Assembly: GCF_002234675.1 (NCBI RefSeq)
Contig: NC_019875.2
Location: forward strand, 23,526,299-23,590,298
DNA: 64,000 nucleotides
From: Oryzias latipes
Lineage: Eukaryota; Chordata; Actinopteri; Beloniformes; Adrianichthyidae
Direction: 5' to 3'
Shown here: one piece after another, positions 28,548 to 64,000 of the stretch
Position numbering within the stretch: the first letter of the stretch is position 1
Layout of the letters: the number at the start of each line of letters is the position of its first letter
Made by a program: the position numbers and the translations under genes
Notes under the pieces: model-generated
Told to the model about the DNA's origin: nothing
Database searches by the model: none
Seen by the model: only the letters and a program-made list of their open reading frames with translations

Positions 28548-30290
28548 AAAAAACACACACAATGGACATCTAGCTGCTATACTGCAACAGCTGATAAACA
28601 AATTTACATATGTATTAAAAAAAATAACAGGTTGGTAGCAGAAGTCATTGTAAAAACCCAGCAGCAAGCCCATTACACTCTTTTTACGAGTTAACAATTA
28701 TACTTAATTTAGATTCAGAGGACTGCAATAGAAATTACCTACAACTATTTAACAGCAGGAAGTGCGTTTTGTGTTTATACTGAACGTTGCTGAGCTACAA
28801 ATCAGCTATGTGGTAACTCTTTCAGCAGTATTTGTTCTGCAAGTTCCATTCAACATGGATGATCGAAAACAAAGTTATGCAAAATAAAGAAAACAAAAAG
28901 TAAAATGTTTTAATTGACAAATAGAATGCATTTATTTTTTTACAATTTACAATTTAATTTCCTGCCAAAATATGCTGAACCGCTTAATTCCAAGCTTGGA
29001 GCTCTGGTATTTTTCTTCATCTGCTTGCAGTTTGCTGTAAATTGCATGCACTGATTTAGGCTTTCAGGGCTTTAACCCTTTTAAAACTTTTTGAATGTTA
29101 AAAATGTTTTCAGGTCCAGCCAATCTGGTTTTTCGTGCTACTTTAATGTAGTCACTGTTGTTGTTTTTATCTGTAAAGCATTTTTGCATTTTCTTATTTC
29201 CTTATAATCTTTAATGCTCACCTGGTGAGTGAACTCTTTTGTGAACTGAATGTTAGAGGTTATATTTGCTTATTAAAATTATTCAAAAATGGGGAAAATA
29301 TTTGTCTGTGGATTGTTGTAACCCATTGAATCATTTATGAAGTCATAAATTACTAAATACACTGGATTGCTACTTTTTGGTTAATTTTAGCATAAAACCA
29401 GCCGAACAACTACTTATGAAGATTTTCTTTGATCAACATCTGCAGCACTGCTTCTCACACATAAAAGACGAGCAGCCTTATATTTATTATTATTATTTGA
29501 TTGATCTTTTTCTTTCTACAAATTGTTATTGTATTCTATTATTGTCTTTTTTAAAAATTTGATAAAACTGTATAGTTCCAGTGTTATGTCCTCAGTTTTG
29601 ACGTTCCTGCAGCTCTCCTCGTTATCCAACGATCCAATAAAAATTCCACATTCCAAAAGTAAAAGGGAAAAATCTTTAATTCCTTTTCTGCAGGTTGAAA
29701 AATGAACAATAATCCACAGTGAACTTAAGGAAAAAAACTGAACAAATATAAAGAAAATATGTAAATTAACGAGAAGAACTTAGCGAGGTCAAAAAACTGT
29801 TTGACTCCATTCCAAAATTGAGACTGACATGCATCTGCTGCGTGACCACCAGTGAACCCAAGAGTGAAACCCCGGCTCCCCCTAGTAGCTGTAAACAGAA
29901 TAACACACTGAATGCAAAATGGTCATCTCTGGCATTAAGGCTTCTACAAAAACTCAATAAAAAGAAATTGAAAAATAAATACATAAAAAATAAATGAAGA
30001 GCAGCCTGGTCCAAAAGTTCAAGAGTCCAAGTTTCTCTTTAGTGGTATATTCTTTTTATTTACCCTTTGAGTTTGGGTTTGACCATGTTAACACACAAAT
30101 GTCATATTGTACATTAACAAATCCAACATTAAATCAAAGAAAAAGCTTCAGTCTTTTCAGAGAGCCATCCACAGCGCTTTTACTATACAGTTGCGCCCTC
30201 CACTGGCTGAACCGAATATAGCTCCTCAGATGAATTTGATGCTTCTGATTGAGAAAGTGCAGCCCTCACAGTTTTGCTGCATCAGGATCT

Positions 30291-61800: not shown

Positions 61801-64000
61801 TGGATTACCCCCTGTGGTCACAGTTCTTGTTGCAACTTCTGGTGCTGCAGTTGAAGGTGCTTGTGGGGCTGCTGTTACATTGCTATGGTAAGTCTGGTTT
61901 TTTAGAACATTGGTTTTGGGTGTAGATTCAGGTGTAGGCGTTGAAAGTTGCTGTTGGGCTATTGTTGCATTGCCCTTTGTGGTTAAAGGTTGTTTAACAG
62001 TAGTTTCAGGTCTATACTTTGGTTCAGTGGCAGGTTGATGTGGGACTGTTGTTTCATTACACCTTGATGTTGGAGGTTGCCTCTGTGCAACTTGTGGTCT
62101 TGGCGTTACTTGTAGCTGTGTTTGCTGAAGTTGGTATTGATGGGTTGCAGTTTTGGATGTTCCAAGCATCACAGCAGAATTTTGGAGTGTTTTTGAAGTA
62201 GCCATTTTTGGTATCCCAGCAATGCTTCCTTGAGATGGCCCAGAACCTTTGACATGAACAAAGTGTACAATTACTGCATCAAGTCCAAAAGATTTGAATA
62301 CAATTAAATTTTTGACATGCTACAGTTGGGCATTACCCAGATTTCATGACATTACCTGCACAGAATCCTCTATGGAGTGAGATGTCATCAATAGCCACTG
62401 ACTGATCTGAACCTCTCCCTTCAAAGATCACCTATGGGGGTGCATTTTAATATTCAGCCTTTTATTTGCGGACTGGTTACTTGGCTTAAATCTGAAAATC
62501 ATAACTACTCACCTGAAATGTTCCGGTTGTTACAAAGTTCACTTGAGCTAGATTCCATACAATGCCTTGTCCCTCCCTCTTCCTCCATAATGAATCAGTG
62601 TTTCCATCGTTGAGCAAGTATACGTCAAGGCCAACTTCCCCTGCTGAATCGTCCATGAGGTACCAGAATTGCAAACAATGAGGTCCAGCGGCAGAACATT
62701 CAGAACTAATAAGACGAGCCGTTTCTCCAAACGGCACACTCTTTGCTTCAATGTAAATGTAGTGGCCACCTGGTTGAAGACAAGAGCATTTACCATTTAG
62801 GTTTTGTTTTACAGTTCATATTCACACAATTTCTCAGTTATGCATTACTGCAGAAAGGCTTTAGCTATAACTAAAAATTAATTCAGTTACCTTGTTTTGA
62901 GTTAGAGGAAGCAGAGATGGTACTTTGTGTGGGGCCACTGTGCCTTTTCCAATCAAACACGTCAAGCTGTTGAGTCCACTGGCATAAATCTTCTTCAAAG
63001 TTACAGTTCATCTGACATCCTAGTAAAGCATTTTAATTGCAGAATTAAATTTGAAGTAGTTTATGCTGAAATACCTTCAGTGGTATCATTACCATCAGCT
63101 GGCTGTGTGATCACTTCCTTTGTAGGAGATTTGTTTATTGGAGAAAGAGTTTGTGGAGGGGCACTCTGTAGATCTGCTGGATTAAAGTATCTTGAAGGAA
63201 GGACCTCATTCGCCATCCTCACATCTGTAATAAAATATGATTGAAGTTTTTCCTTAAACATTTAAATGAGGGGAAAAATATATCTTAAGTCATTACCAGA
63301 GCATGGAAGGTGAAGAAGCTTCATTTCATCTATTGCCACAACAGACTGATCATTGGATTCCCTTTGCCCTTTAATGAGTATCTGAAACAAATAGCACTTA
63401 GTACATAAATGGGGCAAGGGAAAAGCAGAAGGAGGCATCTTCAGATAAGTCTGAACAGTACCTGGAACATTGTTGTTGCATAGAAGTCCACCAGAGCCAA
63501 GTGCCACACATTGCCTTGGTCATGTCTTTTCCACCATACAATCTCAGTTGCTTGGTTCTGAAGCAAATAAACATCAAGGCCCATATGATCACTTGGGCCA
63601 TGCATGTGGTACCAAAACTGTAGGCAGTGAGGACCAATGGCAGAACACTCTGGACTAATAAGGCGAGCTGTATTGCCTTGTACCATGCCTTTAGCCTCAA
63701 TGCAGAGATAACTTCCACCTACAGAAAAGAGATTAAGGATTAAATTCACTTTGATGTGATTTAAAAAAAAAAAAAAAAAGTAAAAAAATCCTTCCATTAC
63801 CATTTGTGGGGCCAGAAGTGCTGTCGGAAATCGGAGTTGGTGTGTAACTGTTCCATATCCAGTCAAGAGCATCTGTGGCCATCTTATTCCAACTACATAG
63901 ACTGCCATCAAAGCTACAGTTGACACTGCAGACTAAACAAAGACATAATCTTAAAATTCAATTTCTTTGAAGTTTCTGATTTTTTTACTTTTTAATAATT
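58816..64000 (-). CDS. Zonadhesin-like gene, copy 2 (last 13 exons; 5' part beyond window)
   Basis: Exons from the window edge: 63932-63801, 63718-63462, 63381-63297, 63224-63075, 63019-62891, 62769-62513, 62431-62356, 62246-60198, 60109-59904, 59823-59676, 59598-59300, 59162-59033 and 58970-58816. They correspond to exons 17-29 of copy 1 with identical lengths except the mucin exon, which is 177 bases shorter. Encoded domains: MAM3, MAM4, mucin-like region, TIL2 and VWD3. The visible frame (4,073 bases) has no premature stop. Outside the mucin exon the translated exons I compared are identical to copy 1; in the mucin exon there are a few changes, such as [12 protein letters not shown] for [12 protein letters not shown]. 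Whether the unseen 5' part is intact is unknown. Confidence 0.9.
60198..62246 (-). other. Zonadhesin-like copy 2: mucin-like exon
   Basis: 2,049 bases, fully open. It reads [10 protein letters not shown] where copy 1 reads KN then stop. It holds four 59-residue units. Confidence 0.92.
61147..61812 (-). repeat. 177-bp mucin tandem repeat, four units in copy 2
   Basis: Four cores; every full unit has the VSTRTVPQ...GDNPTAI form. The VATRTVPQ...GGSPTAI variant found in copy 1 is missing, so the arrays differ in composition as well as number. Confidence 0.93.

Follow-up and report, generated by a model that had tools for sequence, protein, structure and literature searches.

Tandem copies of a zonadhesin-like gene beside a pax3-type gene in medaka, nearly identical over the gene and diverged around it

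The locus described here in the medaka Oryzias latipes raises the question of how two neighbouring copies of one large gene can be almost the same letter for letter while the paralogous sequence on either side of them has drifted apart. The gene is a zonadhesin-like one (zlg), and the window, that is, the whole stretch of DNA analysed, comprises 64,000 nucleotides placed at C17:23526299-23590298. Positions above 64000 are window coordinates continued into the right flank, of which 60 kb was examined (to 124000), and the genome-wide searches cover 734,051,031 bases in 25 contigs. There is strong reason to assign this genome to the inbred medaka strain Hd-rR. A 50-base end of the Tol2 element occurs in it at 15 places (14 exact, one with one mismatch; 0 for the reversed control), against published counts of 15 full Tol2 elements in Hd-rR, 5 in HNI and 16 in HSOK (PMC5705604), although this number by itself does not distinguish Hd-rR from HSOK. 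A literature search at the level of titles and abstract beginnings found no published description of the gene pair.

Extent of the duplication and structure of the gene

The tandem duplication is confirmed. Comparison of the window with itself by BLAST (E<=1e-20; matches >150 bp tabulated) gives two direct collinear copies, as a sequence-only reading of the same DNA had proposed, matching from 28548 and 52792 to the window end, and the minus-strand MAM/mucin/VWD gene described by that reading is present in both. The blocks within the window (28548-29492, 29948-30290, 34196-34449 and 34777-41351 against 52792-53729, 54499-54817, 55363-55635 and 57599-64000) are extended by the flank with 38497-49305 against 61146-71932 (99.1%) and 50957-51559 against 72077-72676 (91.6%), where matching ends. 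Identity in the main blocks of the window ranges from 89 to 99.6%, and E-values fall as low as 0.0, much further than chance would take them. That reading gave a unit of about 24 kb; the copy-to-copy offset is 24244 at the left edge and 22649 inside the gene, and the copies themselves are 23.0 and 19.9 kb long, unequal through insertions and deletions. It had also placed both copies in the window, which holds for copy 1; copy 2 is cut at the window end, its last 8.7 kb lying to the right with 15 of the 28 model exons.

The features of the locus are collected in Table 1. Between the copies lies a retroelement-like repeat whose A-rich end abuts copy 2, and a relative of this repeat occurs inside copy 2 (56412-57600, 79%). 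A 3.9-kb piece at 30291-34195, found in copy 1 only, holds an ORF with a Somatomedin B domain (33447-33620, minus strand; Pfam E 9.4e-6). Rfam and tRNA scans of the window returned nothing.

Table 1. Positions of the duplicated copies, the genes, the tracts of low divergence and the repeats (window coordinates; strand "." where the feature has none)
Feature	Positions	Strand	Remarks
Pax3-type gene	7192-20650	+	paired box and homeodomain exons by Pfam; further exons by eye
Paired-box exon	7192-7557	+	Pfam PAX
Homeodomain exon	16101-16343	+	Pfam Homeodomain
Copy 1 of the duplication	28548-51559	.	23.0 kb; self-BLAST, without and with the right flank
Copy 2 of the duplication	52792-72676 (52792-64000 in window)	.	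19.9 kb; self-BLAST
zlg, copy 1	35990-46966	-	model of 28 exons and 2455 codons; codon 1519 is its one in-frame TAG
zlg, copy 2	58816-69616 (58816-64000 in window)	-	28-exon model; exons 16-28 (13/28) in window, other 15 in right flank
Mucin exon 23, copy 1	37372-39624	-	model exon set by eye
In-frame TAG, mucin exon 23 of copy 1	39245-39247	-	codon 1519 of 2455; sense codon at that site in copy 2
177-bp repeat array, copy 1	38326-39155	-	4.7 units
177-bp repeat array, copy 2	61152-61804	-	3.7 units; one copy 1 unit subtype absent
Near-identical tract, copy 1	35798-48421	.	partner 58624-71041; change-points
Near-identical tract, copy 2, part in window	58624-64000	.	change-points
Small low-divergence segment	28801-29346 (copy 2: 53046-53579)	.	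6/529 sites differ; 0/2,000 shuffles as strong
Retroelement-like repeat between copies	51585-52793	+	1.2 kb; class judged by eye
Insertion in copy 1 only	49306-50956	+	reverse-transcriptase ORF, RVT_1, E 6.9e-32
LINE-like 3' fragment with (TTGAG)n end, copy 2 only	53735-54423	+	class by eye; no Pfam match

The expectation of an expanding family with more copies to the right was not borne out. When the self-comparison was extended over the 60-kb right flank, the copies ended at 72676 and no third copy was found (matches >150 bp, E<=1e-20), and a 200-aa zlg query holding exon 7 has two matches of 100% identity in the genome, after which the best-scoring match is at 38%. Further zlg relics sought in the window by tblastn of the gene model (E<=0.01, outside 35900-47100) gave matches in copy 2 only. 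The sequence contains no N in the window or anywhere from 1 to 85241; a run of exactly 1,000 N at 85242-86241 (C17:23611540-23612539), 12.6 kb right of copy 2, marks a contig gap inside the flank, and a non-adjacent further copy could hide there because gaps in the medaka assembly may exceed 37.5 kb, according to its published account (PMC5705604). Two overlapping ORFs resembling a Tc1/mariner transposase by eye lie in the same flank (104915-105864, minus strand). Elsewhere in the genome, further VWD clusters occur on C6, C14, C16, C18 and C19. At C19:7035481-7049054 the VWD exon matches fall into a pair of sets, separated by 10,231 bp, whose scores are equal or nearly so, an arrangement suggestive of a further recent tandem duplication within this family.

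The placement of the duplication next to pax3 stands, the neighbour being a pax3-type gene that lies tail to tail with zlg copy 1, the nearer of the two. The best solved structures for its homeodomain are Drosophila Paired and human Pax-3; it is tentatively called pax3 rather than pax7 from its residues. At the left window edge there is a RING-finger ORF (322-987, minus strand; zf-RING_UBOX, E 2.4e-9), and ORFs at 2106-2849 (minus strand) resemble by eye the end of a retroelement reverse transcriptase.

The exon structure of zlg is a model built with an exon-chain script, exons 22, 23 and 28 being reset by eye. The automatic chain had 29 exons and 2,298 codons including the stop and bypassed the TAG of copy 1 through another reading frame; the exons put in by eye are the final one of MAM3, a single uninterrupted exon for the mucin and the final one of the VWD series. 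All 27 model introns are GT-AG, the only splice pair that the script permitted, and in copy 2 the reading frame is open across all 28 exons (2396 codons). Pfam domains follow one another 5' to 3' on the minus-strand frames as MAM, VWD, C8, TIL, TILa, VWD, C8, MAM, MAM, MAM, TIL, VWD and VWD. The mucin frame has no Pfam match, and its exon in copy 2 encodes 20.5% T, 9.1% S and 13.9% P over 691 aa. The N-terminus resembles, by hydropathy only, a signal peptide and carries the highest 19-residue hydropathy, beyond which this simple method detected no transmembrane stretch; the architecture is signal peptide-MAM-VWD-VWD-MAM x3-mucin-VWD. The MAM, VWD and mucin exons are read as one gene in this model because the frames listed contain no separate start with a signal peptide ahead of the central MAM domains and because the exon phases join.

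Mosaic divergence between the copies

Divergence between the copies is a mosaic, a point absent from the sequence-only account. The flanks differ by 5-10% and hold different insertions, both of them being alignable paralogous sequence, and between them lies a near-identical tract of 12.6 kb that takes in the entire gene and reaches 0.2 kb beyond the stop codon and 1.5 kb upstream of the start. Within the tract 14/11,763 sites differ (0.12%), a count combined from 7/4,723 (35798-41351) and 9/9,236 (39156-48421) with the 2 differences and 2,196 sites of the overlap counted once. In all flanks together 259/3,958 sites differ (6.5%), the left flank contributing 81/1,488 in three blocks and 98/994 from 34777. 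The 177-bp array was left out of the divergence counts, and the flank count also leaves out 29492-29567 (82% over 79 bp) and unaligned insertions.

Both ends of the tract are steps. At 35798 the frequency of differing sites falls from those 98 of 994 aligned sites to 7/4,723 (lnL gain 151.1; maximum 9.0 in 200 shuffles), and at 48422 it rises from 9/9,236 to 80/1,476 (lnL gain 132.6; maximum 8.0 in 200 shuffles), the shuffles treating sites as independent. Inside the tract the interior at 39248-47132 is free of substitutions across 7,884 sites and holds a single 1-bp indel, at 46227, and all 14 differences fall in the outer 3,879 sites (0.36%); the chance of so long a gap from 14 evenly spread differences is ~2e-6. 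This interior takes in 21 complete model introns, which are as identical as the exons, and since no substitution occurs over a stretch spanning them, protein selection does not explain it. Gene conversion is recognised by a tract, set within diverged paralogous sequence, whose identity changes abruptly at either end and extends through the introns, and the two copies show this pattern. The small segment at 28801-29346 is not a dispersed repeat, as the genome search gives these two places only, and may be a second conversion tract or a constrained element.

At the coding level, codons 1-1518 are identical between the copies and are followed in copy 1 by the premature stop. Across the protein segment that exons 16-28 encode, seven residues differ, the stop included, and copy 2 is without 59 residues (one repeat unit) that are present in copy 1; comparison of the units shows that two in copy 1 form a subtype that differs by 5-7 bases from the copy 2 units. 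If a copy 1 transcript is made, the modelled stop would remove most of the mucin region and the last VWD domain, or lead to decay; it may be spliced round in the animal, since the automatic chain went round the TAG in another frame. Perhaps a single full reading frame is left between the two copies, as the copy 1 model has an in-frame stop.

Possible origins of the near-identical tract

The mosaic is probably the product of an old tandem duplication in which the gene was later homogenised by interlocus gene conversion. A stretch of about 20-23 kb with one zlg would have been duplicated in tandem beside pax3 long ago, and the duplicates would have diverged by point changes and by different insertions; much later the 12.6-kb tract would have been copied from one duplicate onto the other, with the outcome that the gene bodies became near-identical again and the flanks did not. 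The mucin arrays would since have come to be unlike in unit number and subtype, copy 1 now holding the in-frame stop. Conversion as the mechanism, together with its direction and age, is what we infer from this locus.

The duplication does not look fresh, because the flanks are 5-10% apart and the gene tract only 0.12%. Recent duplication of the entire unit was considered and rejected: it would give even divergence and the divergence observed is uneven, and it does not fit flanks that are still alignable yet diverged paralogous sequence. Scaling by the SNP rate between Hd-rR and HNI, 2.455% for about 18 million years as given in the assembly paper (PMC5705604), puts the flanks at ~48 million years and the tract at ~0.9 million, very rough figures that are arithmetic and not a test. 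Tandem duplicates that evolve in concert through interlocus gene conversion likewise show an identity step at both ends, introns included; compared with that typical form, the medaka tract is long, nearly gene-sized, and its exact identity is provisional, the reads being short relative to it. Most vertebrate conversion tracts are far shorter than 12.6 kb, and the length of this one counts against conversion. A more elaborate form of the same explanation, which is offered tentatively, is that gene-sized conversion has been repeated, the 7.9-kb interior being a second, very recent event nested in the older 12.6-kb one and ending beside the copy 1 stop; introns and upstream sequence would thus be kept identical while the surroundings drift, and the mucin array would escape and evolve separately in each copy.

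The manner of assembly bears on how the identity is to be read, as the Hd-rR assembly is described as built from PacBio RS II reads at ~109-fold, with a mean subread of 6,519 bp, by FALCON and Quiver (PMC5705604). Two real diverged copies may have been present, one gene body being overwritten with the reads of the other by the assembler or polisher, so that the tract would be wholly or partly artificial; this is improbable. The interior free of substitutions is longer than the mean subread, uniformly placed differences would hardly leave such a gap (~2e-6), and polishing would give the pattern seen, with 0.36% near the edges (14/3,879) and 0 in the middle. Read polishing may therefore exaggerate the interior identity, true small differences having been polished away, because reads within a 7.9-kb identical stretch are not uniquely placeable. 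However, the tract is not a letter copy, as its two versions are set apart by 14 substitutions, by several small indels and by unlike repeat-unit subtypes; the diverged flanks were kept apart in the same contig, and polishing hardly explains an edge step from 5-10% to <0.4%.

It is less likely still that one or two rounds of unequal crossing over, and not conversion, built the mosaic. Direct tandem copies are a good substrate for it, and two successive crossovers could leave the same pattern, but they need two events at these two points. A single crossover was rejected, as its prior prediction of identity to ~81 kb failed in the right flank, and the third unit that it also predicts is not seen.

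Haplotype duplication, in which the assembler placed two alleles of one locus consecutively, is very unlikely. The gene tracts, 0.12% apart and unlike in repeat number, differ as alleles might; the concern is lessened by a sequence free of N from 1 to 85241, hence with no gap between the copies, by flanks that differ at 6.5% of the counted sites and by several insertions, and by the match to an inbred strain. Functional constraint holding the gene identical while the flanks drift can be set aside almost entirely: the tract is almost coextensive with the coding span (35990-46966 within 35798-48421), but the introns match as closely as the exons do, and the frame of copy 1 is broken by a premature stop.

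Relation to known zonadhesin-like genes and significance

The published description of salmon zlg gives the order VWD, VWC, VWD, MAM, MAM, mucin and a VWD ending near the C-terminus, and reports no transmembrane domain (Hunt et al. 2005; PMC1325057). The medaka gene has this domain order and not that of zonadhesin, as seen by Pfam along the model: signal peptide (by hydropathy only), VWD, VWC/TILa, VWD, MAMs, mucin and C-terminal VWD, in many exons and with no transmembrane stretch by the simple hydropathy method. It departs from salmon zlg in having an additional MAM fragment ahead of the first VWD, three central MAM domains where salmon has two, a mucin exon that is longer and contains the 177-bp repeat, and 28 model exons with 2396-2455 codons against 23 exons and 1506 aa. 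The same source describes one zlg copy in salmon by Southern blot, with no recent duplication on its BAC, and two bands in rainbow trout (PMC1325057).

Zebrafish zlg is placed on chromosome 2, with three MAM domains followed by two VWD domains (PMC1325057). The MAM and VWD modules are shared with the medaka gene and the domain order differs. We take zebrafish pax3a to be on chromosome 2 as well. Zonadhesin proper (ZAN/zan), described as a MAM-mucin-VWD series-EGF-transmembrane protein encoded beside ache (PMC1325057), shares MAM, mucin, TIL and VWD modules with the medaka gene, whose domain order is different and whose neighbour in the window is the pax3-type gene; identity with ZAN was rejected, its order not being found in Pfam and hydropathy analysis of the model.

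Expression of salmon zlg is reported from gut and liver, weakly from ovary and not from testis (PMC1325057), and a gut-mucin role has been proposed for zonadhesin-like genes of fish (PMC9275260). By analogy with salmon zlg, the product of the medaka gene is probably a secreted, O-glycosylated mucin or adhesion protein that would function in the gut. A medaka gene called zonadhesin appears in a female-biased gonad cluster, in an account that does not specify the locus (PMC8633743), and for a gene of that name higher levels are reported in trout embryos of the female sex at 28 days (PMC3166948); these gonad and embryo records count against a pure gut role.

Both the gene and the rearrangement are thus of known kinds; what is unusual is the clarity of the island of identity, which is nearly gene-sized. 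If the tract is an effect of polishing, it is a warning about paralogues in long-read assemblies made from short subreads. If it is real, the identity of the two genes says nothing about the age of their duplication, and a gene-sized island of identity in diverged flanks would be a clean site for measuring the length and rate of conversion in a fish of which three inbred strains have been assembled. The pair shows a mucin/adhesin gene duplicated and partly disabled at once.
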